Positions 1,416 to 46,447 of a stretch of 64,000 nt of DNA are shown in pieces. How positions within the stretch are numbered: position 1 is the stretch's first letter; each line of letters begins with the position of its first letter. Position numbers and translations under genes: made by a program. The notes below the pieces were generated by a model that worked only from the letters and a program-made list of their open reading frames with translations, searched no databases and had not been told where the DNA came from. This DNA comes from an uncultured Bacteroidota bacterium (GTDB taxonomy: Bacteria > Bacteroidota > Bacteroidia > Chitinophagales > Chitinophagaceae). The stretch covers positions 186,001 to 250,000 of the forward strand of contig CAIVKC010000043.1 in assembly GCA_903906365.1 (NCBI GenBank), in the 5' to 3' direction.

Positions 1416-1459
1416 TAAATTAATCCGGACAATGGACCCTATCCAATGATATGTATCAT
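1416..1459 (-). promoter_or_regulatory. CRP-type site with weak -7 element, toward nitroreductase
   Basis: ATGAT-ATGT-ATCAT at 1446-1459 sits inside an 18-bp palindrome (1444-1461) whose arms match perfectly around a 2-bp centre. On the minus strand, TTAATTTA (1423-1416) ends 36.5 bp from the site centre but matches TAnnTTTG at only four of six fixed bases. The leader to the ATG would be over 200 nt, so assignment to the nitroreductase is uncertain. Confidence 0.55.
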
Positions 1460-1594
1460 TGATCGGGATGAGTTGAAGGAAACCAAGGGGGCAGTTGCAG
1501 CCAATAGACACTTATACCCGGCCTTGCTGAAACCGGGTTAATGGGACGGTGTAAGGACTGGACGGCATGCAATCGATGGTAATCAGAATGGATT

Positions 1595-1638
1595 ATGATC
1601 GGTGTCATTTTTCTTAGCCATATAATAATTTAATTTAA
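1595..1638 (+). promoter_or_regulatory. CRP-type site and -7-like element of ftsH
   Basis: ATGAT-CGGT-GTCAT at 1595-1608 is followed by TAATTTAA (1631-1638), which ends 36.5 bp from the site centre. That is the class II spacing also seen at 16850, 33409, 33581 and 46170. The -7 match is partial (TAnnTT). The implied leader is only a few nucleotides. Confidence 0.6.
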
Positions 1639-1645
1639 TTTTTAT

Positions 1646-3649
1646 ATGGAAAATAGGCCAGAAATCAGCAGGCAAAAGCCTGAGTTTAAAGAACCGCCAG
1701 GAGGCAGGGCTATTCGGGGATGGTGGCTCTACCTGTTTTTTCTGGCGATGCTGTTTGTGCCCGGATTGTTTTCCGGCTCCTCTGAGGGTAAGGAGATTAC
1801 CTGGCAGCAATTTGAAAAAGACGTGCTTCCCCGTAATGCAGTAGAAAAAATAGTTGTCCTGAACGGGGAGACCGCCGAAGTGTACCTGAAGCCTGAATTT
1901 TCTAAGGACCCGCAGTTTAAGGACCTTTATAAAAAGGGATGGACCCCTGAAAAGGAGCAGGAACCTCAATATTCATTCCCAATCGGTTCGGTGGAAACCT
2001 TTGACAGAAGGCTTGATGAGGACCAAAAAGGCCTGCCCCTGGGCAGCCGGATTGCGGTAAGCTATGCCAAGAAGACCAATTGGCTTAAGGATCTGTTTAC
2101 TTGGATATTCCCCCTGGTCATCCTTTTCATACTGTTTAATGTTCTTTTCAGAAGAACCATGGGAATGGGTTCGGGTTCCACCGGAGGAGGGCCTTCCATA
2201 TTCAATTTCGGTAAATCCAACGCTACCCTGGTGGAAAGGGAGAAAAGCAATGTCACATTTGGTGATGTTGCCGGTTTGGAAGAGGCCGGCCAGGAAGTGA
2301 AGGAAATCATTGATTTTTTAAAGAATCCCGATTCCTTTACCAAACTGGGGGCAAAGATACCCAAGGGGATCATTCTGGTAGGCCCCCCTGGTACCGGAAA
2401 GACCCTGCTGGCCAAGGCTGTGGCCGGAGAGGCCCAGGTTCCTTTCTTTTCCATATCAGGATCCGCATTTGTGGAAATGTTTGTGGGCGTGGGTGCCAGC
2501 AGGGTACGTGATTTATTTAACAAAGCCAAGGAAAAAGCTCCCTGCATCATATTTATTGACGAAATCGATGCCATTGGCAGGTCAAGGGGAAAGGGTGCGT
2601 TTTTAAGCGGAGCCAACGATGAAAGGGAAAGTACCCTCAATCAGCTGCTCACGGAAATGGACGGATTTGGTACCAACAGCGGAGTGATTGTACTGGCCGC
2701 TACAAACAGGGCCGATATGCTGGATCCAGCATTGCTTCGGCCGGGCAGGTTTGACCGGCATATTTTTCTGGAATTGCCAAACCTGAAGGAACGGGAGGCT
2801 ATTTTCAGGGTTCATTTAAAACCCCTGGTAACCGACGATTCCATTGATATTCATTTCCTGGCTTCCCAGACGCCCGGGTTCTCAGGCGCTGATATAGCCA
2901 ATATCTGTAATGAGGCGGCCCTGATCGCTGCCAGGCGGAAAAGTAATTGCGTAACCCGGATGGACTTTATGAATGCCATCGACCGTACAGTTGCCGGCCT
3001 GGAAAAGAAAAGTAAGATTATTTCAAAGGAAGAAAAGCGGATAATAGCCTATCATGAGGCGGGCCATGCGGTCATTAGCTGGTTATCCAGGCTCGTAGAC
3101 CCGCTCGTTAAGGTATCCATTATACCCCGCGGTAAATCCCTGGGAGCAGCCTGGTATTTACCCGAGGAGAAGCAATTAAAAAGCAAGGCGGCTTTTCAGG
3201 AGGAAATTTGTGCGACGCTGGGAGGAAGGGCAGCAGAGGAAATAGTTTTCGGGGAAGTGTCCTCAGGGGCCCTGGATGACCTGGAAAAAGTTACCAAGGA
3301 AGCCTACATGATGGTGGCCTATTATGGGTTTAGTGACAAAATTGGCAATATCAGTTTTTACGATTCTACCGGATCCCGGGAAAATGGATTTCAGAAACCC
3401 TACAGTGAAGAAACCGGAAGATTGATCGATGAGGAAGCCCGTCTGATTGTTGCCAATGCCTATGCATTGGCCAAGTCCATTTTGGAAAAGTATAAGGATT
3501 CCTTAACGGCCATTGCCGAACTGCTCTTACAAAAGGAGATTGTTTATAAAGAGGACCTTCAGCATATTTTAGGAGAAAGGCCCTTAGTAAAAGTAATGGA
3601 AAACCCGGCCGTTACCCCGCTGGGGGCCGTTGGTTTCACCGTGCTGTGA
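1646..3649 (+). CDS. ftsH: ATP-dependent zinc metalloprotease FtsH
   Basis: 667-aa membrane AAA+ protease that degrades misfolded or short-lived membrane and cytosolic proteins. Two transmembrane segments (about residues 25-42 and 151-168) flank a periplasmic domain. The AAA domain has Walker A GPPGTGKT (246-253) and Walker B IIFIDEID (about 300-307). The zinc site HEAGH is at 470-474, with a downstream acidic ligand region ([10 protein letters not shown]). The gene sits among stress genes behind a CRP-type site, which suggests a stress-specific paralogue rather than the housekeeping copy; that is inference, since the rest of the genome is not visible. Confidence 0.95.
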
Positions 3650-3658
3650 ACAGGCTCC

Positions 3659-3725
3659 ATGATCTTAATCAGTTATTTTTACCCGGTTGGTCATTTTTAT
3701 CGGAGGGGGTTTCGTGGTAGCTTTA
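3659..3725 (+). promoter_or_regulatory. CRP-type site and -7 element of hsp20-phosphorylase operon
   Basis: ATGAT-CTTA-ATCAG at 3659-3672. TAGCTTTA (3718-3725) matches TAnnTTTG except for the last base and ends 59.5 bp from the site centre, one base from the 58.5-bp spacing at 13228, 19095, 23071 and 32771. The site begins just after the ftsH stop. Confidence 0.65.
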
Positions 3726-3744
3726 AATGTAGGTAATTATTAAA

Positions 3745-4200
3745 ATGTATTTTATGCCAACACTGCGAACCCCGGAATCCAAGGCGGATATTTACCCCGG
3801 GCGGTATGTACCCCTGTTCACGGAGTATGAGGTCAAAAGGGAACTCGATCAAAGCAGTCTGCAAATACCGGCTTTGCCGCCCGTAAATATTGTGGAATTA
3901 ATCGATTCATACCGGATCGAGTTGGCCATACCCGGCATTGAACGGGAAGAGTTGGTAGCAGAGGCCTCTGAAAATATTTTGTCCATTAGCGTATTACATA
4001 AAAAAACAGCTGCTGGGGAACCGGGCCTGTTTAAAGTGCACGAATTTGAATATTCCTGCTTTGATAAGGAGATCGTGCTCCCCGAAAATGTGGATACCGA
4101 ATTTGTCAGTGCGGAATATCATGGCGGGGTACTTTCCATGCATGTCCCCAAAGCAAGGAGTAAATCCGGCAGTTTTCATTCGACGATAGTTGTTTATTAA
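3745..4200 (+). CDS. Small heat shock protein, Hsp20/alpha-crystallin family
   Basis: 151-aa ATP-independent holdase chaperone. The alpha-crystallin domain spans about residues 48-140 (PPVNIVELIDSYRIELAIPG through GGVLSMHVPKA), with the typical beta-strand pattern and a hydrophilic C-terminal tail. A second ATG at 3754 (MPTLRT) is an equally plausible start. It precedes the GT35 gene by 8 bp, so the two form an operon. It is divergent in sequence from the second Hsp20 at 23182, so the two are not a recent duplication. Confidence 0.9.
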   Translation: MYFMPTLRTPESKADIYPGRYVPLFTEYEVKRELDQSSLQIPALPPVNIVELIDSYRIELAIPGIEREELVAEASENILSISVLHKKTAAGEPGLFKVHEFEYSCFDKEIVLPENVDTEFVSAEYHGGVLSMHVPKARSKSGSFHSTIVVY

Positions 4201-4208
4201 TATTATTC

Positions 4209-5855: not shown

Positions 5856-6289
5856 TTTATAAGTCGGGCGTGGTTGTGTACCAGGTCGCGGTCTGTATGT
5901 TGCCAAATCACTAAGGAAGTTAGGATTTATGTTTACTGGGGAGGCGGTCCTGGACTCCCTGTTTGGTTTTGTTTTGCCCCGGGCGGCCTGCGGCTTACCA
6001 AATGGGGGTTATTGGATATTTTGTCCCTTACCACGGTTGAAATATGACCCATGATGCCGCCGGCCCGGTTGCCGGGTCCCCAGGTTTTATACCTGTTCAA
6101 TTTACTACAAAAAACAAATGACGATTTCGGCCATCTGTGAAGCCCTGTGAGCTTCAGCAGCCAGTAGCCCTATGATAGATAGATAATCACGTAGCTTTGG
6201 CTATTATTTGAGTGGGGTCAGGTAAATTGCCTCTATGGCTCTTGGGCAGGATTGGCCGTTTACCGGCATAGCCAAAGCGTAAAACTGGT
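5856..6289. other. Intergenic region upstream of phospholipase D gene
   Basis: No gene is visible. TAGCTTTG at 6192-6199 is a perfect TAnnTTTG element, about 90 bp before the next ATG. No CRP-type palindrome lies at the spacing used elsewhere; the nearest similarity is a direct TGTGA repeat at 6136-6150. Confidence 0.4.
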
Positions 6290-9748: not shown

Positions 9749-10585
9749 TCAGGTATGGGCAATGAACAGCGGTAATCTTAGTTCCTTCATTATTATGTCT
9801 GCCATACTGGTCCTGAACCACCTGGATACCCTGCTTCTTCGGTAGGACCCTGACACTACCAGGGTATGGTCTGACTGACCCTTTAGATACCGGATGATTT
9901 CCTCCTCCGGTAATCCCTTTAATACCTGGTAGTTGGCACTGGGAAAATGTCTTTTGATAAATTCCTTGATAAGTTTATTATCCGGAACATGCAGGGACTC
10001 GTAGTTGTTTTTCACCGTAAGTACTTCGGTGTTCAGGTGTTTTAAAAAGGGGAACATATAACTAAACATCCGTATGGCGAATACGGAAGAAGGCTCACCA
10101 TCATAAAGCATAATGATGTTTTCAATCGGTTTATAACTGGAAGGGACCAACAAAACCGGGCATTGCACTTCGCTCAATAAATCACGGATAAATCGGGTGG
10201 GGGCAGGCTCTTCATAATGGGTCAGGGTTTCCCTTGCATCAATAATCAGCAGGTCTGCATAAATGCTTTCATGGATTAGCTCCTGGATCGCTATATCCTG
10301 ATCACGATGGATGTTGAACTGAAAACCGGCGGCCTGGCAGGTATGTTCAAATAATTCGACCGACTGTCTCCTGGTATTTTTGTCCTTTTCCTCAAGCAGG
10401 CCTACTTTGTATTCCGAAACCCCGTCCTTGGTAATCAGATCGGATATTTTATAGCTGGTATAGGTGAAATCTTCCAGGAAAACCCCTACCAAATGGGCAT
10501 GTGACATGTTTATGACTTGGGAGGCATAAGCCAGGGTGCTTTCGGAAAATTTTAAACCATCAAAGGCTGCAATGATCTTTTTCAT
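9749..10585 (-). CDS. Universal stress protein, tandem UspA domains (fourth gene of cluster)
   Basis: 278 aa with two Usp domains, about residues 1-145 and 150-278. The N-terminal strand KKIIAAFDGLKFSE is typical. The second-domain nucleotide loop, normally GxxGx9G(S/T), reads GSYRRSRVSRWFRTS: the second Gly is Arg and the third is not Gly. This is the most diverged of the four and probably does not bind ATP in the classical way. It is last in a same-strand run, 9 bp after the preceding usp gene. Tandem-domain Usps respond to hypoxia and energy stress in other bacteria. Confidence 0.9.
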   Translation of the reverse strand: MKKIIAAFDGLKFSESTLAYASQVINMSHAHLVGVFLEDFTYTSYKISDLITKDGVSEYKVGLLEEKDKNTRRQSVELFEHTCQAAGFQFNIHRDQDIAIQELIHESIYADLLIIDARETLTHYEEPAPTRFIRDLLSEVQCPVLLVPSSYKPIENIIMLYDGEPSSVFAIRMFSYMFPFLKHLNTEVLTVKNNYESLHVPDNKLIKEFIKRHFPSANYQVLKGLPEEEIIRYLKGQSDHTLVVSGSYRRSRVSRWFRTSMADIIMKELRLPLFIAHT

Positions 10586-11431: not shown

Positions 11432-11440
11432 GGATGTATT

Positions 11441-12386: not shown

Positions 12387-13214
12387 CTATGGGTGACTGA
12401 TGAAGGCCGGTATTTTGTGATCTTTGATAACGCCGGTTATAAAACTCTTCTTAAATAACGATGAAAAGGAGGACCGGCCATAAGAACCGCTTATCACCAT
12501 GGCGGATTTTTTGTCACTCAGCCACCGTGCAAAATATTTGGCCGGTTCCAGATTAAGCTTCATGATGGTAAGATTTGGAAAAGACCGGGAAACAAGTTCC
12601 TCAATATATATTTCATCCGGCATCTCTTTGTCTGAATGGTCTCTGGCATATACCAGCAGCGTATTGTTGGTCGTCATATCCGGGAATAGATAGGTGAATT
12701 GCTTTATCGCATATACGGATGCCTCACTTCCATCATAGGTGAGTATATTGCTCTGGGGAAATTCATATTTTTCCGGAACTACCACCACCGGGCATTCGGA
12801 AGAATGAAGGGCATCCTGTAAATATTCATTGGGTTCTTCGGTACCCAGGTTCTTGTAAAAGCTTTCACTCCCAATGACCAGTAAATGGGCAAATCTGGTT
12901 TCCTTTTTTAATTCCGGCATCGCGAAATTTTCAAAATCACGGTGTACCCTGAATTCTATTTGGTTTTTTATGCAAAAGGCTTCAAACCGGAGTATGTTCT
13001 TTTCGATCTCAGAAGAATCCGGCTTTTCCTCCACCGGAATGAATAGCGGACCGATCATGCCATCCGAATAGCTTCTGCGCAAATCCGCAAAATCCAGTTT
13101 AGGCAAAAAAACCCCGGTAACCAGGATCTTGGATATTTCGTTCCTATTTCTGATAAAATTCAAAGCGCCTTCCGAAAAATGTGTTCCGTCAAAAGCGACT
13201 AATATTTTATTCAT
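12387..13214 (-). CDS. Universal stress protein, tandem UspA domains (first gene of cluster)
   Basis: 275 aa, two Usp domains, starting NKILVAFDGTHFSEGAL. The C-terminal loop GSYGRSSFSSLFKKSF has GxxG but Lys in place of the last Gly. As first gene of the cluster it sits directly behind one of the best promoters in the window: a palindrome at 13280-13293 and a perfect TAAATTTG -7 element. The predicted leader is only about 10 nt. Confidence 0.9.
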   Translation of the reverse strand: MNKILVAFDGTHFSEGALNFIRNRNEISKILVTGVFLPKLDFADLRRSYSDGMIGPLFIPVEEKPDSSEIEKNILRFEAFCIKNQIEFRVHRDFENFAMPELKKETRFAHLLVIGSESFYKNLGTEEPNEYLQDALHSSECPVVVVPEKYEFPQSNILTYDGSEASVYAIKQFTYLFPDMTTNNTLLVYARDHSDKEMPDEIYIEELVSRSFPNLTIMKLNLEPAKYFARWLSDKKSAMVISGSYGRSSFSSLFKKSFITGVIKDHKIPAFISHP

Positions 13215-13227: not shown

Positions 13228-13293
13228 CAAATTTATTCCTATAAGCAGTAGGTATATATGACCGGCATCAAAAAAATGGGTGATGATAATCAT
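13228..13293 (-). promoter_or_regulatory. CRP-type site and -7 element of usp cluster
   Basis: On the minus strand ATGAT-TATC-ATCAC (13293-13280) precedes a perfect TAAATTTG (13235-13228), with 58.5 bp from site centre to the last -7 base. No TTTG -33 box lies at normal spacing, which fits dependence on an activator bound near -62. Confidence 0.75.
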
Positions 13294-13467
13294 TTTTAAG
13301 GCAGGCATCGGTAAACCATAAATGTCCTCCCTTTTTTACCTGATGAACCTAAGTTCCCTCCCAGACAGGGTATGGGAAAATATGGTATTCATAATAGAGT
13401 ATGGGTGTTCTGTTCTACATGTAATCTTGACAGCCGGGAAGCGATGGTTAGATCCCGCATTTTGATA

Positions 13468-13497
13468 CCTGTCATTTTTGGTTATGACAGGGGTCAT
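13468..13497 (+). promoter_or_regulatory. Nested palindromes in front of ppsA
   Basis: ATGAC-AGGG-GTCAT (13484-13497) is a perfect CRP-type site. Its left half also pairs with an upstream arm: CCTGTCAT (13468-13475) and ATGACAGG (13484-13491) form an 8-bp perfect inverted repeat around an 8-bp spacer. The two palindromes share ATGAC and cannot both be filled by separate dimers. No good TAnnTTTG lies at 36.5 bp (AAAATTAC, 13520-13527); an alternative TTTG-N19-TAATAATG (13477-13507) would put the site inside the promoter. Confidence 0.65.
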
Positions 13498-13538: not shown

Positions 13539-15932
13539 ATGAGCGAATATATCAAGAAGTTTATCAATATTCGGATGAATGATGTCAATACGGTAGGCGG
13601 CAAGAATGCCTCGCTGGGAGAGATGTATTCCCAACTGTCAGGAAAAGGAATTGAAGTGCCCAACGGATTTGCGGTTACCGCCAACGGGTTTTGGCTGTTT
13701 GTCGAGGAGAACCAATTACGCGGTCTCATCAAGGGTGAATTGGAAAAGCTAGACAGGGTCAGTTTCAGTAATTTGAAGGAGGTGGGAAGCAGCGTCCGTG
13801 AATTATTTTTGAAAGCCAGCATGCCCAAAGTACTATCTGAGGAAATCATGGCAGCCTACATGGATTTATGCCAGGGAGACTTGGTGGAAGTGGCCGTCAG
13901 GAGCAGCGCTACTGCGGAGGACCTTCCGCAGGCAAGTTTTGCTGGTCAGCACGAGTCATTTTTAAATGTCAAGGGCTATGGCGCGATCCTGAAGGGTGTC
14001 CAGGATTGCTATGCTTCTCTTTTTACCAACAGGGCGATCAAATACCGTGAGGATAATGGATTTGATCATTTAAAGATAGCCTTGTCCGTCGGAGTTCAGA
14101 AAATGGTACGTTCGGATAAAGGTTGTTCAGGAGTGGGATTTACCCTAGAGCCGGAATCGGGCTTTTCTGATATTATTCACATTTCCGGGGTTTGGGGCCT
14201 GGGTGAGAATATTGTACAGGGAACGGTAACCCCGGATGAATTCTTTGTTTTCAAACCGACTTTAAGGCTCCAAAAAAAGGCGGTCATTCAACGGAAACTT
14301 GGTGAAAAGGCCCTTACCATGATTTACTCCGAACAGGCCCCCAATAGTGCGTCAGTCATTAATGTGGAGACACCTTTGGAAAAAAGAGAGGCATTTGTAT
14401 TGGAGGAGCCCGAGGTCATTCAACTGGCAGAATGGTTTTCTATTATTGAGGATCATTATAAAAGGCACATGGATATAGAATGGGCCAAAGACGGTATTAC
14501 CAATAAATTATACATTGTCCAGGCAAGACCGGAAACGGTCCATTCCCAGAAAAACCCCTATCAGCTTAAGGAATACAAATTAATGGAAAAGGGAGTCTGT
14601 TTGACCCAGGGTAACGCAATAGGTTCCAAAGTTGCCACCGGCGTGGCCAGGATCCTGCAATCACCTGAGGAGAGTGATAAGGTGAATGTCGGTGACATAG
14701 TGGTTACCGACATGACGTCGCCGGACTGGGATCCTATATTGAAGAAATCAGGGGGAATAATTACCAACAAGGGCGGAAGAACCAGTCATGCTTCCATTGT
14801 GGCCAGAGAACTCGGCGTTCCGGCCGTTGTGGGTTGCAATGATGCCACCACGGTAATTCAGGACGGGGAAATGATTACCGTGAGTTGTAGTGAAGGGAAG
14901 ATCGGATTTGTATACCAGGGTAAAGTGGCTTTCAAAGAAACGGCATTGGATTTTTCCCATATTCACAAACCGGAGTCCACTGAAGTCATGCTGATCGTAG
15001 GAGATCCTGATAAGGCCTTTAAGCATTCCTTTTACCCCAATGATGGGGTGGGGTTAATGCGGATAGAATTTATCATAACGCATTTTATTCAGATTCACCC
15101 CATGGCCCTGGTAAAATTCAAGGAACTCAAGGATCCCGCCGCAGTAGAAAAAATTGAACGGCTGACCCATCACTATGCCAATAAGGAAAAATACTTTGTT
15201 GAAAAACTCGCTGAAGGAATTGCTACCATCGGGGCGGCATTTTATCCCAAGGATGTTATCGTCCGTATGAGTGATTTTAAAACCAATGAATATGCCAATC
15301 TGATTGGCGGAAAACAATTTGAACCCCATGAGGAAAATCCTATGCTGGGATTTCGCGGAGCTTCCCGGTATTATAATGAATTGTACAAGGAAGGCTTCCG
15401 GCTAGAATGTGAGGCCGTTAAATGGGTAAGGGAGGAGATGGGGCTCACCAATATTAAGGTGATGATACCTTTCTGTAGAACCGTGGAAGAGGGGAGAAAG
15501 GTTATAGAGGCACTGAAAATGAATGGGTTGGACAGGGACAAAGATGCGACTTTGGAAGTGTATGTAATGGCTGAAATACCCAGTAATGTGCTGTTGGCTG
15601 ATGAATTCGCCAAAATTTTTGACGGATTTTCCATTGGTTCCAATGATCTCACCCAGCTTACCCTTGGGGTGGACAGAGATTCCGAAATGGTCAGCGGGTT
15701 ATTCAGTGAGCAAAACGAGGCGGTCAGGATGATGATCTCCATGGTCATTAGTAAGGCTAAACAGGCAGGGGCCAAGATTGGCTTATGCGGGCAGGCCCCC
15801 AGCGATTTTCCGGAATTTGCCAGATTCCTGGTGCAGCATGGCATAGACAGTATTTCATTTAATCCGGATGCCGTGGTCAACGGAATTGAAAATATTAAGC
15901 AGGCCGAGGCCCAATTGCTAACCACTGCTTAG
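13539..15932 (+). CDS. ppsA: Phosphoenolpyruvate synthase (PEP-utilising enzyme family)
   Basis: 797-aa enzyme that converts pyruvate and ATP to PEP, AMP and phosphate, the entry to gluconeogenesis. Order of domains: N-terminal ATP-grasp PPDK_N (VGGKNASLGEM through RPETVHS, residues about 18-340), the phosphohistidine swivelling domain with GGRTSHASIVARELGVPAVVG (His about 418), and the C-terminal TIM barrel (GFRGASRYYN to GLCGQAPSDFPEFARFL, with Cys near the end). Length fits PpsA rather than PPDK (about 870-900). In a stress island it may reset carbon flow when glycolysis or respiration stalls. Confidence 0.93.
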   Translation: MSEYIKKFINIRMNDVNTVGGKNASLGEMYSQLSGKGIEVPNGFAVTANGFWLFVEENQLRGLIKGELEKLDRVSFSNLKEVGSSVRELFLKASMPKVLSEEIMAAYMDLCQGDLVEVAVRSSATAEDLPQASFAGQHESFLNVKGYGAILKGVQDCYASLFTNRAIKYREDNGFDHLKIALSVGVQKMVRSDKGCSGVGFTLEPESGFSDIIHISGVWGLGENIVQGTVTPDEFFVFKPTLRLQKKAVIQRKLGEKALTMIYSEQAPNSASVINVETPLEKREAFVLEEPEVIQLAEWFSIIEDHYKRHMDIEWAKDGITNKLYIVQARPETVHSQKNPYQLKEYKLMEKGVCLTQGNAIGSKVATGVARILQSPEESDKVNVGDIVVTDMTSPDWDPILKKSGGIITNKGGRTSHASIVARELGVPAVVGCNDATTVIQDGEMITVSCSEGKIGFVYQGKVAFKETALDFSHIHKPESTEVMLIVGDPDKAFKHSFYPNDGVGLMRIEFIITHFIQIHPMALVKFKELKDPAAVEKIERLTHHYANKEKYFVEKLAEGIATIGAAFYPKDVIVRMSDFKTNEYANLIGGKQFEPHEENPMLGFRGASRYYNELYKEGFRLECEAVKWVREEMGLTNIKVMIPFCRTVEEGRKVIEALKMNGLDRDKDATLEVYVMAEIPSNVLLADEFAKIFDGFSIGSNDLTQLTLGVDRDSEMVSGLFSEQNEAVRMMISMVISKAKQAGAKIGLCGQAPSDFPEFARFLVQHGIDSISFNPDAVVNGIENIKQAEAQLLTTA

Positions 15933-16745: not shown

Positions 16746-16849
16746 ATCCAAGCAATAGAACGCTGCTATTATTAACGGCAGTGGAGTCGGGTGGTGTTCT
16801 GTGTTTTGGTGGCAATATGACCTGATGGGGAGAAAGGTCATGTCTTAGG

Positions 16850-16893
16850 GTGATAAAAGTCATTGACCCTTCTCGCAGGCTGGATTTATTTTG
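16850..16893 (+). promoter_or_regulatory. CRP-type site and -7 element of pfkB-like gene
   Basis: GTGAT-AAAA-GTCAT at 16850-16863. TTATTTTG (16886-16893) matches TAnnTTTG except for one base and ends 36.5 bp from the site centre. The implied leader is about 80 nt. Confidence 0.65.
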
Positions 16894-16977: not shown

Positions 16978-17940
16978 ATGGAGTCCATGTCTAATATTAT
17001 CACTATTACATTAAGTCCCGCTGTGGATAAGAGTGCAACGGTTCCTGTGCTGATACCGGATAAAAAAATGAAGTGCTCCGATCCTGTCTTTGAGCCAGGC
17101 GGAGGGGGTATAAATGTGGCCAGGGCAATCCGAAAACTCGGCGGAAATGCCCTGGCGCTCTATTTGGCAGGTGGAAATACGGGCAGGTACCTCACCGGTA
17201 TGTTAAAAGATGAGGGCATAGATACGGCTCAAATTGAAACAGCCTCTGAAACCAGGGAAAATCTTTCCATCCTGGATTTGTCGTCGGGATTGCAGTATCG
17301 CTTTGGAATGCCTGGCGCCTTCATTGAGCCCGATGAATTGAAGCAGTTACTTGGTAGGGTAAGGGCAATGGGCAGCCTTGATTATATGGTCCTTAGCGGA
17401 AGCGTGCCACCCGGGGTTCCCAAGGACATATTTGCCAGGCTGGCTTCCATTGGAAAGGAAAAAGGCGCCAGGGTGGTATTGGATACCTCCGGTGAAGCCC
17501 TGCGTGAGGGCGCTCATGAGGGTGTTTATTTGTTAAAGCCGAACATGGCTGAAATCAGCGCCCTGATGGGAGAGGAAAAGATGAATGATATGGCTGTGGA
17601 AGACATGGCCTATGGTTTATTGGAAAGGGGAAATTGTGAGATTTTATTGCTTTCCATGGGGGCCGGGGGAGCACTTTTGCTGACCAGGGAGGAGACCATC
17701 CGCCTGAGTTCACCGGCTCTTAAGGTCAGGAGTACTGTTGGAGCGGGGGACAGCATGGTGGCTGGCATGGTATACAGTCTTTCCCTGGGAAAAACAGCCG
17801 AAGAGGCTGCAAAATATGCGGTAGCCTGCGGAGCGGCCGCTACCATGAATCCAGGCACCGAATTATGTAAGCGTACCGATGTGGACCGGTTAATTCACCG
17901 GGTGCATTGCCACCGGATTAGACAAAGGGTAAATCAATAG
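16978..17940 (+). CDS. PfkB-family sugar kinase, phosphofructokinase-like
   Basis: 320 aa (or 317 from ATG 16987, MSNIITITLS). N-terminal ITLSPAVDKS and GGGGINVARAIRKLGG are typical of the 1-phosphofructokinase/6-phosphofructokinase-2/tagatose-6-phosphate kinase subgroup. The C-terminal signature VGAGDSMVAGMVYS carries the catalytic base Asp258 and the anion hole. Without a PTS fructose transporter or aldolase nearby, the phosphorylated sugar is unclear; the mycobacterial DosR-regulon PfkB (Rv2029c) is a PFK-2 of this group. The substrate call is therefore inference. Confidence 0.85.
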   Translation: MESMSNIITITLSPAVDKSATVPVLIPDKKMKCSDPVFEPGGGGINVARAIRKLGGNALALYLAGGNTGRYLTGMLKDEGIDTAQIETASETRENLSILDLSSGLQYRFGMPGAFIEPDELKQLLGRVRAMGSLDYMVLSGSVPPGVPKDIFARLASIGKEKGARVVLDTSGEALREGAHEGVYLLKPNMAEISALMGEEKMNDMAVEDMAYGLLERGNCEILLLSMGAGGALLLTREETIRLSSPALKVRSTVGAGDSMVAGMVYSLSLGKTAEEAAKYAVACGAAATMNPGTELCKRTDVDRLIHRVHCHRIRQRVNQ

Positions 17941-19094: not shown

Positions 19095-19160
19095 CTGACG
19101 ATAATCATACTGCCTTTTGTCAAAAGTCATGGTATACCCTTCCTCAGTTGACTAAATTAC
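19095..19160 (+). promoter_or_regulatory. CRP-type site and -7-like element of small-protein operon
   Basis: CTGAC-GATA-ATCAT at 19095-19108. TAAATTAC (19153-19160) is a partial TAnnTTTG match that ends exactly 58.5 bp from the site centre. The implied leader is about 35 nt. Confidence 0.6.
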
Positions 19161-19199: not shown

Positions 19200-19445
19200 A
19201 TGAAAAACAACGAAAAAATATTGATTGCGCTGGGCTCCGGACTGGCAGTGGGCGGATTGCTCGGAGTCCTTTTTGCACCAGACAAAGGATGTGAAACAAG
19301 AAAGGACATAGCCGATGCGGGTAAGAAAATTTCTGACAATGTCAAAAAGGCAATCAGAGCAGGAAAGGAAAGGTGTGAAACATTTACGGAAGAATTGGGA
19401 AAACAGGTTTCCAGGGTTGGCGATAAAATGGAAGAATTGGTTTAA
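19200..19445 (+). CDS. YtxH domain small membrane protein
   Basis: 81 aa. A glycine-rich N-terminal hydrophobic segment (ALGSGLAVGGLLGVLFAP, residues about 11-28) is followed directly by the charged amphipathic helix typical of YtxH proteins (DKGCETRKDIADAGKKISD and on). YtxH proteins are associated with general stress responses, but their biochemical role is unknown. First gene of a four-gene small-protein set behind a CRP-type site. Confidence 0.8.
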   Translation: MKNNEKILIALGSGLAVGGLLGVLFAPDKGCETRKDIADAGKKISDNVKKAIRAGKERCETFTEELGKQVSRVGDKMEELV

Positions 19446-23070: not shown

Positions 23071-23136
23071 CTGACCACCCTCATTATTTTTAGTGACCGA
23101 AGTCTTTGATTCAGCCTGTGGACGTTTTTACCTTTG
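23071..23136 (+). promoter_or_regulatory. CRP-type site and -7 element of second hsp20 gene
   Basis: CTGAC-CACC-CTCAT at 23071-23084 deviates from consensus at one core base (C for R). TACCTTTG (23129-23136) is a perfect TAnnTTTG, ending 58.5 bp from the site centre, as at the usp promoter. Confidence 0.7.
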
Positions 23137-23181: not shown

Positions 23182-23628
23182 ATGTCAACTAAATTATTAG
23201 GAAAAAGCGGTGAAACATTTCCTGCTTTATTTGATGATTTCTTCCGCCCATGGAACGAATGGTTTGACCAGGGGGGAATCATGGGCAAGACGATGAATGT
23301 TCCTGCCGTGAATATCGTTGAAAATAAGGATGACTATTTGGTTACTTTAGCAGTCCCGGGTATGAATAAGGACGATTTCAATATAGATGTAAATGGGACC
23401 ATGCTGACCATCAGCTGTGAAAAGGAAGAAAAAAAAGAGGAAAAGGACGCCAAATACAACCGGAAGGAGTATAATTATTCCTCCTTCAGCAGGAGTTTTA
23501 CCTTACCCGACGAAATCAACAAAGAGAAAATCGACGCCAGCTATGAAAACGGAATTCTGAAGATTAATTTACCCAAGAGGGAGGAAGCCAAAAAGCTCAT
23601 CAATAGCAAGCATATCGCAGTAAAGTGA
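23182..23628 (+). CDS. Small heat shock protein, Hsp20/alpha-crystallin family
   Basis: 148-aa holdase chaperone. The alpha-crystallin domain runs from VPAVNIVENKDDYLVTLAVPGMNKDDF to ENGILKINLPKREEAKK, with the usual GILKINLPK strand and an IAVK tail. It starts 5 bp after AGGAGG, a real Shine-Dalgarno and unusual in this phylum, suggesting strong translation. It is a single-gene transcript between a CRP-type promoter and a terminator. Confidence 0.95.
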   Translation: MSTKLLGKSGETFPALFDDFFRPWNEWFDQGGIMGKTMNVPAVNIVENKDDYLVTLAVPGMNKDDFNIDVNGTMLTISCEKEEKKEEKDAKYNRKEYNYSSFSRSFTLPDEINKEKIDASYENGILKINLPKREEAKKLINSKHIAVK

Positions 23629-23796: not shown

Positions 23797-24855
23797 TCAA
23801 TTGAGCAGATTCTCCAGTTTCTTGGCATTTAGAATGGTAATGGCGCCTTCTTTGATTTCTATCAATTTTTCCATCCTAAAATCACTCAGGGTTCTTATCA
23901 GGGATTCTGTTGCGGTGCCCGCGATGGTGGCCAGATTTTCACGGCTTATATCAATGGTATATTTGTCGATTTTGGAAGTGTTGTATTTTTTATTCAATAA
24001 AATCAGGGTATCCGCCACTTTTTTTCTCAAAGAATTATAGGCGAGCCCCAACAATTGCTCCTCTTTTTCGGAGATATTCCTGGCGAGCATTTGGATGAAT
24101 TTTCTGCTTACCTCCTTATTATTATTGATCAGTGATTCGAAATCTTCGCGCGGGATGATCGCTAATTCCGTTTCTTCCATGGTTTCAGCGGTTTCTTTGT
24201 AATTACTGTTTTCCAATAAGGCGATATGACCTAAAAAATCCCCTTCATTGTACAAACCAATAACCAGGTCCTTGCCGTCCTCGTTTGTCTTAAAGGTTTT
24301 TATTTTACCCTTTTTTATATAATACAAACAGGTAGGCCGGTTGCCTTCAGAAAAAATAAGCTGTTTTCTCTTATATTTATTGATATTTCGGTCACTGGTT
24401 AGCGCTGATAATACATCCTTACCGCTACTGGCCATGATCAGTTCCTGAACCCCCTGCATACCGCCGCTGAACTCCTCTTTCATCAGTGCCGTTTTGGCCA
24501 GCCTGCTTTCAACTGCGTTTAAGAGTTCCGTGCCGCTGAAGGGTTTTGTTATATAATCATCGGCCCCCAATTCCATTCCTTTTCGGAAGTCGGAGCGTTC
24601 AGTCTTTGCAGTCAGAAATATGAAGGGTATATTTTTTGTCGAGGGGTTCTTATGGAGCATGTGCAACACGCCATAGCCATCCAGAATGGGCATCATAATA
24701 TCGCATATTATAAGGTCCGGACATTCTTTCAAAGCCACTTCCACTCCTTCTTTTCCGTTTTTTGCCGAAAATACTTTGTAATTGGCCAATTCCAGGATTT
24801 CGGCGGTATTTCCAAGGATGGTTTCATTATCCTCAATCAGCAGAATTTTTTTCAT
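23797..24855 (-). CDS. Response regulator fused to CRP/FNR-type activator (REC-cNMP-HTH)
   Basis: 352 aa. An N-terminal receiver domain (residues 1-120; Asp52 in CDIMMP, Lys in FLTAKTE) is joined to a cyclic-nucleotide-binding-like beta-roll (about 150-265) and a Crp-type winged helix (about 280-350). The recognition helix TESLIRTLSDF keeps Glu317 and Arg321, the residues that read TGA in CRP and FNR. The cAMP-binding Arg-Ser pair is replaced (NYKETAE), and the FNR cysteines are absent, so the signal is probably phosphorylation. Best candidate regulator of the NTGAY-N4-RTCAN sites; that link is inference. Confidence 0.93.
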   Translation of the reverse strand: MKKILLIEDNETILGNTAEILELANYKVFSAKNGKEGVEVALKECPDLIICDIMMPILDGYGVLHMLHKNPSTKNIPFIFLTAKTERSDFRKGMELGADDYITKPFSGTELLNAVESRLAKTALMKEEFSGGMQGVQELIMASSGKDVLSALTSDRNINKYKRKQLIFSEGNRPTCLYYIKKGKIKTFKTNEDGKDLVIGLYNEGDFLGHIALLENSNYKETAETMEETELAIIPREDFESLINNNKEVSRKFIQMLARNISEKEEQLLGLAYNSLRKKVADTLILLNKKYNTSKIDKYTIDISRENLATIAGTATESLIRTLSDFRMEKLIEIKEGAITILNAKKLENLLN

Positions 24856-25177: not shown

Positions 25178-25243
25178 TCAATTTATTGGATAATCAACCG
25201 GGATTGGCTGATATATATCTGGAAGGAGATTGATATTAATCAT
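25178..25243 (-). promoter_or_regulatory. CRP-type site upstream of REC-CRP regulator
   Basis: TTGAT-ATTA-ATCAT at 25230-25243 is a strict site. On the minus strand TAAATTGA (25185-25178) is a partial -7 match at 58.5 bp. The leader to the regulator's ATG would exceed 300 nt, so autoregulation is possible but not strongly supported. Confidence 0.45.
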
Positions 25244-32257: not shown

Positions 32258-32764
32258 TCAGATATTACATAAAGAGCAATGGATATCCAGGTGTACCGTT
32301 TTTATTTTCCAAATACCTTTTATTTTTTGGAGATATATGATACACAACCCATATCCATGCTTTTGCCTAACCGAATTGGCGATGGCTGGATCTGTAAACT
32401 CAAAACTGGTGTTTAAACTGGCCGCAGTATGGTCATCGGAATATCGCAGAATGGCGGTTTCATTTCTGTCTATTTTGTGTTTTAAGGATACATGCACGGC
32501 AGAATCCAGCATGGTTTTGATGAAATTGTTTTTTCCAACAAAGTTTTCGTGCATCCATTGCAGGATGAAGTCTTCCGGCAGAAGGGCACTCAGGGTAGTG
32601 GTATCAGATTTGTTAAAATAGGTTCCAAAGCTGATGGCCGTACTCCAGATAAGGCTGTCATCCGAAGTAGAGGGGGTGTCCTGATGGGAATTATTTCCGG
32701 CTCCCTGTTGTGATAATCCCAGCAGGGGCATTAAAAACAAACTTATATGTAGTAATACTTTCAT
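32258..32764 (-). CDS. Exported DUF4440/SnoaL-like protein
   Basis: 168 aa from ATG 32764 (MKVLLHISLFLMPLLGLSQ, a good signal peptide); a longer frame to 32836 would run through the CRP-type site. The mature part (DSLIWSTAISFGTYFNKSDTTTLSALLPEDF ... GIWKIKTVHLD) fits the NTF2-like fold of DUF4440 proteins. The C-terminus has CSLC, possibly a disulfide or metal site. Function unknown. The site and -7 element in front are very close, giving an almost leaderless mRNA. Confidence 0.75.
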   Translation of the reverse strand: MKVLLHISLFLMPLLGLSQQGAGNNSHQDTPSTSDDSLIWSTAISFGTYFNKSDTTTLSALLPEDFILQWMHENFVGKNNFIKTMLDSAVHVSLKHKIDRNETAILRYSDDHTAASLNTSFEFTDPAIANSVRQKHGYGLCIIYLQKIKGIWKIKTVHLDIHCSLCNI

Positions 32765-32770
32765 AATAAA

Positions 32771-32836
32771 TAAATGTAGGAACCTGGAGCGGTGCCTGGG
32801 CTGATGGAATTCATTGGCTGATCTGACAATCGTCAT
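32771..32836 (-). promoter_or_regulatory. CRP-type site and -7 element of DUF4440-like gene
   Basis: CTGAC-AATC-GTCAT (plus-strand reading, 32823-32836). On the minus strand TACATTTA (32778-32771) matches TAnnTTTG except for the last base, 58.5 bp from the site centre. The ATG is only 6 bp past the -7 element. Confidence 0.68.
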
Positions 32837-33408: not shown

Positions 33409-33452
33409 CTAATGTATGGAGATTGAATACGGGTTCTGATGATTATACTCAT
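33409..33452 (-). promoter_or_regulatory. CRP-type site and -7 element toward 80-aa gene
   Basis: ATGAT-TATA-CTCAT at 33439-33452 (one core mismatch). Minus-strand TACATTAG (33416-33409) is one base off TAnnTTTG at 36.5 bp. The leader to the 33222 ATG would be about 180 nt. Confidence 0.55.
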
Positions 33453-33580
33453 CCATTGATATGATAATGTTTGGTTGTGTACCAGCTATTTTGGCCTTTC
33501 ATGGTCTTTATGATTGATGAAAGGGAGGCTCCTGCCTTTCCTGAGCTCGGTAGTAGCATGGTGGTAAATCATAATTTTAT

Positions 33581-33624
33581 TTGATTTATGTCATTTAGTA
33601 AGAGGTTTGCGTCCAATACATTTG
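33581..33624 (+). promoter_or_regulatory. CRP-type site and -7 element of PepSY-like gene
   Basis: TTGAT-TTAT-GTCAT at 33581-33594. TACATTTG (33617-33624) is a perfect TAnnTTTG, 36.5 bp from the site centre: the class II arrangement. Confidence 0.72.
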
Positions 33625-36562: not shown

Positions 36563-37369
36563 TTACCGGATTGAATTAACGATTTGAACAATGATCATTT
36601 CCTCAATGAATATCAGGAACATGGAAATAACCACAGCGGAGTTGGCGGCCCGTCCCACACCTACGGTACCCTGCCTTGCCTGGTAACCCAGAAAGGAGCC
36701 GGTTATGCCGATGGTAAAACCATATACTATGGATTTTATGACAGAGGCGAAAATATCCAGGAAGGTTATTTTTACAAATGCATCGTGAAAAAAGGAGGTG
36801 AAACTGGTTAGTTCATTGTTATTGACATTGAGAAAGGCGCCCAGTAAGCCAATAAAACCGGCGTAACACATCAGTACCGGCAGCATGCAGGTAGTGGCAA
36901 GTACCCGGCTTACCACCAGAAACTTGAATGGATTGGTTCCGGAAACCTCCATCGCGTCAATTTGTTCAGTCACATTCATGGATCCAAGCTCAGCGCCAAT
37001 ATTGGAGCCTATTTTACCTGCGGCGATCAGTGCGGTTATCAGCGGGGCCAGGGCCCTTATCAATGCCAGTGAAATGAGGGAGGGTAGCCATGATGTGGCA
37101 CCAAATTCGGAGAGCGGCTGTCGGGATTGTTTGGTAAACACGATCCCGGTGATGAAACCCGTCAGGGTTATGATGGCCAGGGATCTGTAACCTATTATGT
37201 AGCATTGCCGGATTATCTCTTTAAATTCAAAAGGCGGGGTAAAGGCCTCCTTAAAGAATCTTAATATAAAACGGGATATATTGTAAAGATTGCCAAAGAA
37301 CTGGAACACTTTTTCCGGAAATGACAGTTTAATTTCCTGCGATTGTATCGTTTCTGATTCATTTTCCAT
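36563..37369 (-). CDS. Mla-type ABC transporter permease (MlaE-like)
   Basis: 268 aa from ATG 37369 (MENESETIQS). The DUF140/MlaE permease signature is clear: IGYRSLAIITLTGFITGIVFT, then IGSNIGAELGSMNVTEQIDAMEVSGTNPFKFLVVSRVLAT. Five or so membrane segments. First gene of mlaEFD. A perfect CRP-type site sits 70 bp upstream, inside the frame extension to 37453, which supports the later start. Confidence 0.9.
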   Translation of the reverse strand: MENESETIQSQEIKLSFPEKVFQFFGNLYNISRFILRFFKEAFTPPFEFKEIIRQCYIIGYRSLAIITLTGFITGIVFTKQSRQPLSEFGATSWLPSLISLALIRALAPLITALIAAGKIGSNIGAELGSMNVTEQIDAMEVSGTNPFKFLVVSRVLATTCMLPVLMCYAGFIGLLGAFLNVNNNELTSFTSFFHDAFVKITFLDIFASVIKSIVYGFTIGITGSFLGYQARQGTVGVGRAANSAVVISMFLIFIEEMIIVQIVNSIR

Positions 37370-37387
37370 TGCCGGAAGTGTATAATG

Positions 37388-37453
37388 GCAAAGTATTGGG
37401 AAATAGAAAGGGGTTACATGACTCTTATTATTCTCCCGGATGATTTTGATCAT
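37388..37453 (-). promoter_or_regulatory. CRP-type site upstream of mlaEFD
   Basis: ATGAT-TTTG-ATCAT at 37440-37453 is a perfect palindromic site. On the minus strand TACTTTG (37395-37389) is a TAnnTTTG variant lacking one spacer base, about 57.5-58.5 bp from the centre. Confidence 0.62.
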
Positions 37454-42702: not shown

Positions 42703-42713
42703 AATGGTGGTTT

Positions 42714-43463: not shown

Positions 43464-43518
43464 CTGCTTCAGGGCTTTAGGCCGGTCTAAGAACGGCAAC
43501 AACCGTTCAGTTGATTTT

Positions 43519-44817
43519 TCAACGATTGGCAGCAGGGCGACTGGTTGCAGCCGGCCTCCTGGTTGGCATAAATGGACTTCTGGCAGGGGAAGCGGGGCTT
43601 TTTACCGGAGTCATATCCGCACCCTGGGAAATAACCAGATCATCTTCCGGGCTCAACCCGCTGATTACCTGCACATGCATATCATCATTGAGCCCCGTAT
43701 ATATCTCCTTTTTAAGCAGGCTGTCCCCTGATTTTATCCATACAGTGGACTGCTGGATAAGTGTCCCGCTGCTGTCTGTATATCCGGCGTTTCCGCCTGT
43801 GGGGGTATTTGACAGATTCTTCTTCCTGTTATCGGGCTGCGCGGCTGGGGGGGCGGCCTGCTTTTCCCCGGCCCGGACCCTGAATTGTCCGAGCACCTGC
43901 GGGCTGGGGTTGTATTTAAGCGCTTTTACGGGAATCAGCAATGCATTTGAATCCTCATGGGTATACACGAAAATATTGGCTGTCATACCCGGCTTCAATT
44001 TCAGATCCTCGTTGGGTGCGTCAATGATGGTGGTATAAGTGACGACATTGGCGGAAACCTGTGGTTTGAGCCTGATCTGGGAAACCTTTCCATAAAAATT
44101 GATGCTGGGGTAGGCATCCACGGTAAAGACCGCCCGCTGTCCCACCGTTACATTTCCGATGTCCGCTTCATCCACAGCCGCCTGGACCTGCATTTTTTTA
44201 ATGTCCTTGGCGATGATAAACAAAGTGGGGGTACTGAAACTGGCGGCCACGGTCTGTCCTATGGAAATGTTTCTGGACAGCACGACCCCGTTCACGGGAG
44301 AATAGATGGTAGCATAGGAGAGGTTCTTTTGAGCGCCTTCCAGCTGGGCCTCCACGCTTTTGACGGTGGCTTTGGCCGTTTCATGGAGGTTTTCGGCATT
44401 ATCATAATCGGCCCGGCTGATTCCGCCGGCCTGGTAGAGTTGGGACTGGCGGGAAAAATTGTTTTCCTGGTAAGTCAGGTTGCTTTTTGCCAGTTCAAGA
44501 TTGGCCTTATATTGGTTGACGGTAGCCTCAAAGAGCGATTTATCCAACTCGGCAATAACTTCCCCCTTTCTAACAACGTCATTAAAATCTGCATAGATGT
44601 ATTTAATAGTCCCCGAAACCTGGGAACCTACCGTTACCGTATCGACGGGCTCAATGGTGCCGGTGGCCGTTACCGACTTAGAGATATACCCGTACTGGGG
44701 CTTTTCGGTATCCAGCTGGATGGGTTTTGTTTTATTGCGGATGCCAAAGTACCACCACGCGCCGGCTCCTGCTGCGAGCGTTAGTACAATAATAATTAGG
44801 GTTAATTTCTTTTTCAT
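43519..44817 (-). CDS. MacA-like periplasmic adaptor protein
   Basis: 432 aa. N-terminal membrane anchor (KLTLIIIVLTLAAGAGAWWYFG), lipoyl halves (SVTATGTIEPVDTVTVGSQVSG; YSPVNGVVLSRNISIGQTV), an alpha-hairpin (about 85-165) and a beta-barrel. A Pro/Arg/Ala-rich C-terminal tail (SPASPARSPFMPTRRPAATS) is unusual. It connects MacB to the TolC protein encoded just upstream. Confidence 0.92.
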   Translation of the reverse strand: MKKKLTLIIIVLTLAAGAGAWWYFGIRNKTKPIQLDTEKPQYGYISKSVTATGTIEPVDTVTVGSQVSGTIKYIYADFNDVVRKGEVIAELDKSLFEATVNQYKANLELAKSNLTYQENNFSRQSQLYQAGGISRADYDNAENLHETAKATVKSVEAQLEGAQKNLSYATIYSPVNGVVLSRNISIGQTVAASFSTPTLFIIAKDIKKMQVQAAVDEADIGNVTVGQRAVFTVDAYPSINFYGKVSQIRLKPQVSANVVTYTTIIDAPNEDLKLKPGMTANIFVYTHEDSNALLIPVKALKYNPSPQVLGQFRVRAGEKQAAPPAAQPDNRKKNLSNTPTGGNAGYTDSSGTLIQQSTVWIKSGDSLLKKEIYTGLNDDMHVQVISGLSPEDDLVISQGADMTPVKSPASPARSPFMPTRRPAATSRPAANR

Positions 44818-44829
44818 GCCAACTGGTTA

Positions 44830-46143
44830 TTACTGGATGGGTATTCCATGGTAAAATTTGTAAATCTTGATATTGAGTATTGCACTGTACTTTGCCTGAA
44901 TGTATTGTTGCATGGCCTGGACAAAAAGTGTTTTCTGCTGCAGGTATTCCACCGTATTTGCAGCTCCAATCCTCAGTTGCTCTGCGGCGATGCGGTAACT
45001 CTCTGTGGTAGCTGTCAGTTCCTCGACGGCAGCCTCGAACTGGGACTGTGCGTTTAATACAGCGATATAGGATTGTTCTATGGATTGCAGCAGGACGGTT
45101 TTTGCGTTGGTTTCATCCAAACCTGCCTGGGCGATGCCTATTTTTGATTTTTCAACGTTAACATCGTTTATTTTCTTACTGAAAATGGGTATGCTTAACA
45201 GGACCCCCACCTGCTGGTAGAAATTGTTTTCCAGGGTTTTGGAGTATACCTGGGAGGGAATGCCCGGGTAGTTGCTGAATAAGTTTCCGCTGGCGGTGAT
45301 GAACGGCTTATATCCTGACCGGGCTTTTGCCAGCTCAAGCTGGGCAACCTTCACTCCAATGGCGGCATTTCTTATTTCAGGCCTGTTTTGCAATGCGAAA
45401 TCTTCCACCGTTTGGAGGCTGGCTGCCGGCGCACCAATGGCCATGGTATCGGGTTCTGCAACATCGAGCTGGCTCACTACCGGTAAGAGCAGCAATTGCT
45501 TTAAGTTGAGCAGGTAATACCGTTTTAGGTTCTGGGCATTGACGAGGCTGTATTTGTCGGCTGCCAGCTGCGCCTGCAGTATGGCGAGGTCCTTTTTGGC
45601 CAGGGTACCGGCTTGGTACTGCTGTTCCCCCAGTTTCAGCTGGGCCTGGGAGGTTGATAGCAATTCGGTGAGGTAGATGATATTTTCCTTTGACAATAAT
45701 ATACTCAGGTATTCCTGCACGATTTGCAGGGTAAGATTATTTTCCTGTTCCTGTACATTGAGTCCGTAGGAGTCTACCAATAATTTCTTCTGCCGGATAT
45801 CATTTTTCAGCAGGCCCCCGCTATACAGGGTCAAGGATCCGTTAATACCGTAACTGCCTTGCGGCGCAGTCTGGCTCGGGTAGTGGGTCAAGGCATGGGA
45901 AAGCTGCGCCGATACGAGGGGCCATTGAGCGTATTTGGATAGAAAATAATCCTGGCTTCCCGACTGCTGGCTAAGCCGTAGTTTATTGAGCTGGATATTG
46001 TTCTTCCGTGCATAGTCCAGGCATTTGGAGAGGTCCCATACAAAAGACGAATCCCCGGAAGGCGCGGTTTGGGCCCGGGATCCATACGGTATACCCAATG
46101 TAAAACCCCATAGGCCCAGAAAACTGATTTTCAGGAATTGCAT
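44830..46143 (-). CDS. TolC-family outer membrane efflux protein
   Basis: 437 aa with signal peptide (LKISFLGLWGFTLGIPYGSRAQ). Two OEP repeats with long helices (TETAILRE-type hairpins). First gene of the TolC-MacA-MacB operon and directly behind one of the best CRP-type promoters in the window; the leader is about 20 nt. Confidence 0.92.
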   Translation of the reverse strand: MQFLKISFLGLWGFTLGIPYGSRAQTAPSGDSSFVWDLSKCLDYARKNNIQLNKLRLSQQSGSQDYFLSKYAQWPLVSAQLSHALTHYPSQTAPQGSYGINGSLTLYSGGLLKNDIRQKKLLVDSYGLNVQEQENNLTLQIVQEYLSILLSKENIIYLTELLSTSQAQLKLGEQQYQAGTLAKKDLAILQAQLAADKYSLVNAQNLKRYYLLNLKQLLLLPVVSQLDVAEPDTMAIGAPAASLQTVEDFALQNRPEIRNAAIGVKVAQLELAKARSGYKPFITASGNLFSNYPGIPSQVYSKTLENNFYQQVGVLLSIPIFSKKINDVNVEKSKIGIAQAGLDETNAKTVLLQSIEQSYIAVLNAQSQFEAAVEELTATTESYRIAAEQLRIGAANTVEYLQQKTLFVQAMQQYIQAKYSAILNIKIYKFYHGIPIQ

Positions 46144-46447
46144 ATAACTGTTTCATGCATGTTAATGGGCAAAACTAAGGCTGTGGCAGGCCCGGCATCA
46201 TGACCATGCTCATGGCCCGAAGTGATTTTGTGTACTCCGGCCCTGTGGGAAAAAATGGCCCCCGCCACGCCAAAAGTCCGGCGACAGGGCCTTGTGCCGG
46301 TTTTATCCCTGCCGGCCTGTCAGCAGGGTTTGCGGATCAATGCGGCCTGCTTCAAGCATTACACAGGAGCATCGGCACCTGCGTTATATAACCGCCGATT
46401 TAGTAAGGATTATTCATATTAAAAAATCCGGACTCTGCTGAGAAACC
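46144..46447. other. Intergenic region with MacAB-TolC promoter
   Basis: 304 bp, no gene. Apart from the CRP-type promoter at 46170-46213 nothing stands out. Confidence 0.5.
46170..46213 (-). promoter_or_regulatory. CRP-type site and -7 element of MacAB-TolC operon
   Basis: ATGAC-CATG-CTCAT (plus-strand reading, 46200-46213; one core mismatch). Minus-strand TAGTTTTG (46177-46170) is a perfect TAnnTTTG, exactly 36.5 bp from the site centre. Confidence 0.7.

Follow-up and report, generated by a model that had tools for sequence, protein, structure and literature searches.

A tandem CRP/FNR-type operator with 22-bp spacing marks predicted low-oxygen and stress promoters in an uncultured Chitinophagaceae bacterium and its relatives

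The described systems closest to the one reported here are the FixL-FixJ-FixK pathway of rhizobia, the [4Fe-4S] FNR proteins, DosS/T-DosR of mycobacteria, and E. coli CRP. The FixK box of rhizobia is TGAT-N4-ATCA-like; DosR is a LuxR-type response regulator that binds a 20-bp box and is unrelated to CRP; and at tandem class I/II promoters, two E. coli CRP dimers that share a face of the DNA can cooperate. In a 64-kb stretch of the genome of an uncultured Chitinophagaceae bacterium (contig C43, positions 186001 to 250000; hereafter the window), we found a composite element, TGAYN4RTCA-N10-TGAYN4RTCA-N23-TAnnTTTG, in which two palindromes stand in tandem at a fixed distance from a Bacteroidota -7 box. 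We put at about 80% the probability that these tandems are operators of a low-oxygen/stress regulon, the predicted class II activator being a receiver-CRP fusion protein (REC-CRP) in this bacterium and an FNR-like protein in relatives.

The likeness to the rhizobial pathway lies in a PAS kinase related to FixL and DosP, an output of CRP/FNR type, and targets that include cbb3 oxidase (fixNOQP) and a fixI-like copper ATPase (Cu-ATPase). Unlike in rhizobia, receiver and CRP/FNR domain form one protein here, the operators are tandem at 22 bp, and the promoter belongs to the Bacteroidota -7 type. With [4Fe-4S] FNR, the system shares a similar site core and, in relatives free of REC-CRP, the cysteine pattern of a regulator near cbb3, whereas REC-CRP is without the cluster cysteines and the operator is double at one spacing. 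The proximal palindrome, at -41.5, resembles FNR class II promoters, for which a characterized Fnr site is centered at -42 (PMC5934665). Overlap with DosS/T-DosR, likewise a two-component system, concerns the targets: HSP20 (alpha-crystallin), universal stress proteins (Usp), PfkB, and nitroreductase are also part of the DosR dormancy regulon (PMC5309233). The regulator here is of CRP type, unlike that of a DosR regulon, and the likeness is convergent at most. A cation ATPase is a further target in common with the DosR regulon. In E. coli CRP, cyclic AMP (cAMP) is contacted by E72, R82, and S83; by comparison, the cAMP contact is lost here and a single operator spacing dominates across loci of many genera. 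A search of the open-access literature returned no REC-CRP fusion regulator and no tandem FNR sites in Bacteroidota; most subscription papers lay outside it, so this result is no proof that the fusion is undescribed. Homologues from a Flavobacteriales and a Saprospiraceae genome have been treated as MalR-like in PMC8510549, in whose main text the words "tandem" and "receiver" are absent. In a flavobacterium, cbb3 oxidase and heme genes are reported to be induced when oxygen is limiting, with no regulator named in that account (PMC9723704).

TGAYN4RTCA has 18 strict matches in the window, compared with 4.07 expected (standard deviation, 2.18; dinucleotide shuffles). A preliminary description of this DNA had listed 14 palindromes, all of which are present with the mismatch counts given there. 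Its strict count of 11 was too low, having overlooked 13259 and 13463, the tandem partners of 13281 and 13485, together with five matches within coding DNA (23853, 38533, 38785, 46798, and 55689). Its chance estimate of 0.3 strict copies per roughly 5 kb is right, because the shuffles give about 0.32 per 5 kb. Its placement of every listed site between genes is inexact at 32824 and 37441, which reach into the first codons of open reading frames (ORFs) as called; the true starts of these ORFs may be downstream of the called ones.

Among palindrome spacings of up to 60 bp in the window, the sole peak is at 22 bp, center to center, with 7 distinct pairs (one palindrome strict, the other with at most one mismatch); other spacings have at most 2 pairs each. 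Near-perfect tandems (at most one mismatch) number 7, whereas 200 dinucleotide shuffles averaged 0.015 and never gave more than 1. Distances of 36.5 and 58.5 bp between site center and TAnnTTTG had been claimed at nine sites and were recovered at all of them, with 0 mismatches in the TAnnTTTG element at 13281, 23072, 33582, and 46201, 1 mismatch at 16851, 33440, and 32824, and 2 mismatches at 1596 and 19096. The two distances had been taken for alternative class I and class II promoters. However, all four sites at 58.5 bp are paired with another palindrome, shifted 22 bp toward the promoter to 36.5 bp (13259 with 0 mismatches; 19118, 23094, and 32802 with 1 mismatch each), and therefore the two spacings are the two halves of one element. 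Two of the five sites at 36.5 bp have a good upstream partner (1574, 1 mismatch; 16829, 2 mismatches), while the partner is poor (3 mismatches) at 33582, 33440, and 46201. The broader proposals, a CRP/FNR-type regulon at a fixed distance from the Bacteroidota -7 box and a proximal palindrome at the class II position, are supported.

Across the genome (4,657,888 bases in 69 contigs), there are 26 near-perfect tandems and no match to the reversed tandem used as a control; at up to 3 mismatches, the counts are 246 and 81. Exact palindrome pairs with any gap from 0 to 30 number 7, against 0 for the control, and 5 of the 7 have the N10 gap. Eleven of the 26 tandems are on C43 (seven in the window and four just before it) and five are on C13, with the remainder dispersed over C4, C11, C22, C29, C39, C45, and C52. 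Under the simple longest-ORF rule used for calling, the bodies of ORFs of at least 100 amino acids (aa) contain none of the 26; two tandems fall within shorter called ORFs, 81 and 82 aa long (L028:19137 and L030:13753), and several extend across the called start of an ORF. On the basis of the shuffles and reversed-pattern controls we rejected chance or base composition as the source of the signal, and the absence from the bodies of long ORFs led us to reject a coding artifact. Between Usp and PNPOx-like genes (L026:17138-17195), three strict palindromes follow one another, 22 and then 24 bp apart.

The arrangement recurs in 80 loci around REC-CRP relatives, many of them from named Chitinophagaceae and others from Adhaeribacter, Pontibacter, Rufibacter, Emticicia, and Fluviicola. 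These loci contain 136 pairs at 22 bp, compared with 2.0 on average at each other spacing. A near-perfect tandem occurs in 60 of the 80 loci, and 128 of 134 tandems are intergenic. Among the named outlier loci, L106, L108, L112, and L114 have a tandem and L104, L109, and L117 lack one. Counting distinct tandems, a -7 box with at most one mismatch ends exactly 36.5 bp from the proximal center in 108 of the 134, of which 13 carry one on both sides; any other offset has a mean of 2.5 tandems and a maximum of 9. Exact TAnnTTTG boxes at 36.5 bp number 60 versus a mean of 0.79 (both orientations counted). The -7 box of Flavobacterium psychrophilum spans -12 to -5 (PMC9723704), so the two palindromes would be centered at -63.5 and -41.5. 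No conserved TTG was found at -33 in the relatives' tandem promoters. A class II activator-dependent promoter has its activator centered near -41.5 from a mapped start and a weak or absent -33/-35 element; here the distance to the -7 box and the missing TTG are sequence observations, and the start is a predicted one.

The best candidate binder in this genome, and most likely the activator, is the receiver-CRP fusion, which has one copy in the window and a paralogue beside the cbb3 cluster. The protein encoded at 23797-24855 (P0001), already suspected in the preliminary description, has a receiver-cNMP-HTH_Crp architecture in Pfam and belongs to the CRP/FNR superfamily, with PF00027 and PF13545 over cut-off. 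The response-regulator residues D9, D52, and K104 are present in 82 of 82 REC-CRPs, and position 82 is T in 78 and S in 4. At the position of E72, all 82 have Y, H, or F; with this contact lost, cAMP-CRP was rejected as the binder. REC-CRPs also differ from iron-sulfur FNR, only Cys51 being conserved and the internal FNR Cys position being C in 9 of 82, and from FixK, a separate, FixJ-activated CRP/FNR protein without a receiver. All 82 REC-CRPs have Cys51 immediately ahead of the phospho-acceptor Asp52, and a redox role is possible; a cysteine in this place is also present in other receivers. REC-CRPs form one clade in two trees (97/100 and 100/99), the second with 22 REC rows instead of 29 and without L155, L164, L165, and several rows marked "own other." Their recognition helix is of the TATESLIR type.

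The C13 paralogue lies directly after a PAS kinase and beside the cbb3-oxidase cluster, and in 77 of the 80 relatives' loci the REC-CRP ORF has a kinase within 200 bp. No kinase gene adjoins P0001 in the window, and its two-component pairing is correspondingly not seen there. The best solved relatives of the C13 kinase PAS domain are FixL and DosP, with the FixL heme His aligned; 69 of 73 aligned kinases, among them kinases other than those adjacent to REC-CRP, retain this His.

REC-CRP failed as the sole binder: 24 of 66 genomes without it carry 3 or more tandems, and these led us to FNR-like proteins with C-x2-C-x(8-10)-C plus an internal Cys in tandem-bearing genomes that have no REC-CRP. 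The four-cysteine pattern, which would hold a putative cluster, occurs in 32 of 48 FNR-like proteins of FNR loci. The 47 FNR loci analyzed contain 31 pairs at 22 bp, compared with a mean of 0.27 per other spacing; 24 of 31 tandems have a -7 box at 36.5 bp, and tandems are present in 19 loci. Thirteen loci of REC-CRP-free genomes combine a four-cysteine FNR-like protein, ccoNO or Cu-ATPase, and a tandem. Among nine FNR recognition helices inspected, six are TATES/T-x-IR and three TVKETAIR, resembling the REC-CRP helix. Of 10 loci (L146, L147, L150 to L153, L156, L158, L159, and L163) in which an FNR type with C-x2-C-x10-C lies beside a Usp-like gene and cbb3 is missing, 1 has a near-perfect tandem; the operator of this type may differ.

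Tandem number follows the presence of these regulators. In 149 genomes of the order, tandems with at most one mismatch number 653, compared with 51 for the control: 511 versus 30 in the 83 genomes with REC-CRP (428 versus 26 in 70 with REC-CRP only, 83 versus 4 in 13 that also have FNR), 112 versus 9 in 33 with FNR only, and few, 30 versus 12, in 33 with neither, all counted as genomes rather than independent events and with kinship ignored. At most the best 13 candidates per genome were scored for REC-CRP, so some "no REC-CRP" labels may be wrong. The FNR labels derive from search matches, with cysteines checked in part of them, and exclude matches in G000, G101, G030, and G126 that are REC-CRPs or P0004-like (see below). 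In a phylum-scale set of 148 genomes, the signal is strong in 28 genomes from other orders of the same class (97 tandems versus 5 in the control) and weak in 111 genomes from other classes (82 versus 18), both controls being summed by eye. One genome from another order of the class, G241, has 37 near-perfect tandems versus 0 in the control, the highest count in both genome sets.

At 104 of the 121 oriented promoters in the relatives' loci, a gene follows within 250 bp: ccoNO (18), kinase (14), Usp (14), Cu-ATPase (7), HSP20 (3), three singles, and 45 others. Pfam searches of 81 of these 104 downstream proteins, a subset that excludes most cbb3 copies, add DoxX (5), hemA-type (2), and hemerythrin (2). 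In the genome itself, the neighbors of tandems include ccoNO, a FixI-like Cu-ATPase, Usp, and PNPOx-like genes on C13, BON and Usp genes on C43, and ferrochelatase and hemA-type genes on C22. Window targets are FtsH, a run of Usp, a PEP-synthase-like protein, PfkB, a YtxH-like protein, HSP20, and an MlaE-type permease (Table 1).

We propose that each palindrome would be occupied by a dimer of a CRP/FNR-family activator, the two dimers lying side by side; 22 bp is about two helical turns, so both palindromes would be on one DNA face. The proximal dimer, at -41.5, would act as the class II activator, aided by the distal dimer at -63.5, at a promoter that keeps the TAnnTTTG box without a conserved -33 TTG. 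REC-CRP would be switched under low oxygen through phosphorylation by the FixL/DosP-related kinase, a putative heme-PAS histidine kinase, in a FixL to FixJ to FixK pathway with FixJ and FixK merged in one protein. Where relatives lack the fusion, the same operator would be used by an FNR-like protein with the four cluster cysteines.

The geometry could instead reflect two separate promoter classes with single CRP-type sites at either -41.5 or -63.5. Such -41.5 sites with poor partners exist, both in the window (33440, 33582, and 46201) and in the relatives' loci, where only 71 of 107 strict -41.5 sites with a -7 box have an upstream partner with at most two mismatches and 29 have at least four mismatches upstream. 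The strict -63.5 sites with a -7 box are nevertheless partnered at -41.5 with at most two mismatches in 116 of 130 cases (both orientations counted here too), so class I sites alone are rare; since the four sites claimed as class I are likewise partnered, two classes seem very improbable. It is also rather improbable, if less extremely so, that a standalone CRP/FNR protein binds the operator and REC-CRP is a bystander or partial binder. The genome has 10 HTH_Crp_2 matches, 8 of them other than REC-CRPs, and one of these, the cysteine-free CRP P0004 (L032:4070-4777), shares an adjoining tandem with a divergent GcvH-like gene (4805), on whose side the -7 box is perfect; tandems in FNR-only genomes are also what a standalone binder would give. 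However, the P0004 recognition helix differs (TVRENVVR), the 70 genomes with REC-CRP and no FNR match are rich in tandems, and tandems are common near REC-CRP, with a kinase gene downstream at 14 of 104 oriented promoters.

The operator might also serve a signal other than oxygen, such as nitric oxide, redox state, or starvation. This we consider unlikely, although the window targets are general stress genes (HSP20, Usp, FtsH, and PfkB), Cys51 is invariant beside the phospho-acceptor, and no more than 18 of 73 kinases retain the O2-contact Arg of FixL (the position is M in 31, R in 18, and L in 12). Against it, genes for cbb3 oxidase, for its Cu-ATPase, and for heme synthesis or use recur in linkage, and in other genomes an FNR-like protein with cluster cysteines adjoins the same operator. 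Beyond the poorly partnered sites, the standalone proteins, and the variable Arg, several observations weigh against the low-oxygen, double-operator reading. The FixL His is not unique to heme PAS domains. No near-perfect tandem was found in 20 of 80 REC-CRP loci or in 28 of 47 FNR loci, and 15 of 83 REC-CRP genomes hold at most one. Some genomes with neither regulator have several, G065 having 8 tandems versus 2 in the control. Of the 46 loci that encode an FNR-like protein, only 17 have ccoNO or Cu-ATPase, some contigs being short. In the bacterium's own genome, a -7 box (at most one mismatch) stands at 36.5 bp for only 9 of the 26 near-perfect tandems; there is none at that distance for the perfect tandem L026:12714 or for the window tandem at 13463, which has 3 mismatches there.

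Table 1. Tandem operators, single palindromes, and the candidate regulator in the window
Feature	Coordinates	Strand	Remarks
Single strict palindrome between nitroreductase and ftsH	1447..1458	none	Without good partner
Tandem operator, 1 mismatch, upstream of ftsH (1646-3649)	1574..1607	+	-7 box TAATTTAA, 2 mismatches
Single strict palindrome upstream of HSP20 (3745-4200)	3660..3671	+	Without good partner
Perfect tandem operator upstream of 12387-13214	13259..13292	-	Perfect -7 box TAAATTTG, 36.5 bp from proximal center
Perfect tandem operator upstream of PEP-synthase/PPDK-like gene 13539-15932	13463..13496	+	Strict pair
Tandem operator, 2 mismatches, upstream of pfkB-type kinase 16978-17940	16829..16862	+	-7 box TTATTTTG, 1 mismatch, at 36.5 bp
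Tandem operator, 1 mismatch, upstream of YtxH-like/holin-like genes at 19200	19096..19129	+	-7 box TAAATTAC, 2 mismatches
Tandem operator, 2 mismatches, upstream of HSP20 23182-23628	23072..23105	+	Perfect -7 box TACCTTTG
REC-cNMP_binding-HTH_Crp_2 fusion regulator P0001, candidate binder	23797..24855	-	Pfam; one REC-CRP clade
Tandem operator, 1 mismatch, 354 bp upstream of REC-CRP gene	25209..25242	-	-7 box (-) TAAATTGA, 2 mismatches
Tandem operator, 1 mismatch, across called start of ORF 32258-32836	32802..32835	-	-7 box TACATTTA, 1 mismatch, at 36.5 bp
One-mismatch palindrome, poor partner	33440..33451	-	-7 box with 1 mismatch at 36.5 bp
Strict palindrome, weak partner at 33560 (3 mismatches)	33582..33593	+	Perfect -7 box TACATTTG at 36.5 bp
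Tandem operator, 1 mismatch, across called start of MlaE-type permease ORF 36563-37453	37419..37452	-	-7 box, 2 mismatches
One-mismatch palindrome, poor partner, upstream of outer-membrane efflux gene 44830-46143	46201..46212	-	Perfect -7 box TAGTTTTG at 36.5 bp

Autoregulation of the REC-CRP gene through the tandem at 25209..25242 is possible. The gene at 12387-13214 has no Pfam match and heads a series of genes of similar length; one of these, 9749-10585, matches Usp. A near-perfect tandem (L029:1494) lies upstream of a CheB gene and a gene for a CheR-PAS-HisKA-HATPase protein (L029:1678-6099, reaching into the window at 18-464), which makes a second sensor kinase a possible target. The region 46448-59313, with a Y_Y_Y sensor-like protein, a SusC/SusD pair, and a GH16 enzyme, looks like a polysaccharide-utilization locus from its gene content and has no near-perfect tandem.

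The same double site appears to be used in related bacteria by two kinds of oxygen sensor; the trees gave no order of appearance for FNR and REC-CRP. We suggest tentatively, at somewhat short of even odds, that in the low-oxygen response of Bacteroidia a double operator of rigid geometry has been conserved while the sensor was exchanged, iron-sulfur FNR for a heme-PAS-driven FixJ-FixK fusion or the reverse, and that the 22-bp pairing reflects a cooperative dimer of dimers, perhaps with receiver-receiver contacts behind the cooperativity. The 34-bp operator plus -7 box can be searched exactly and would map the regulon across many Bacteroidia, and the finding points to the regulator to delete. 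It would also offer a case in which cis-sites appear conserved though the sensing protein differs.

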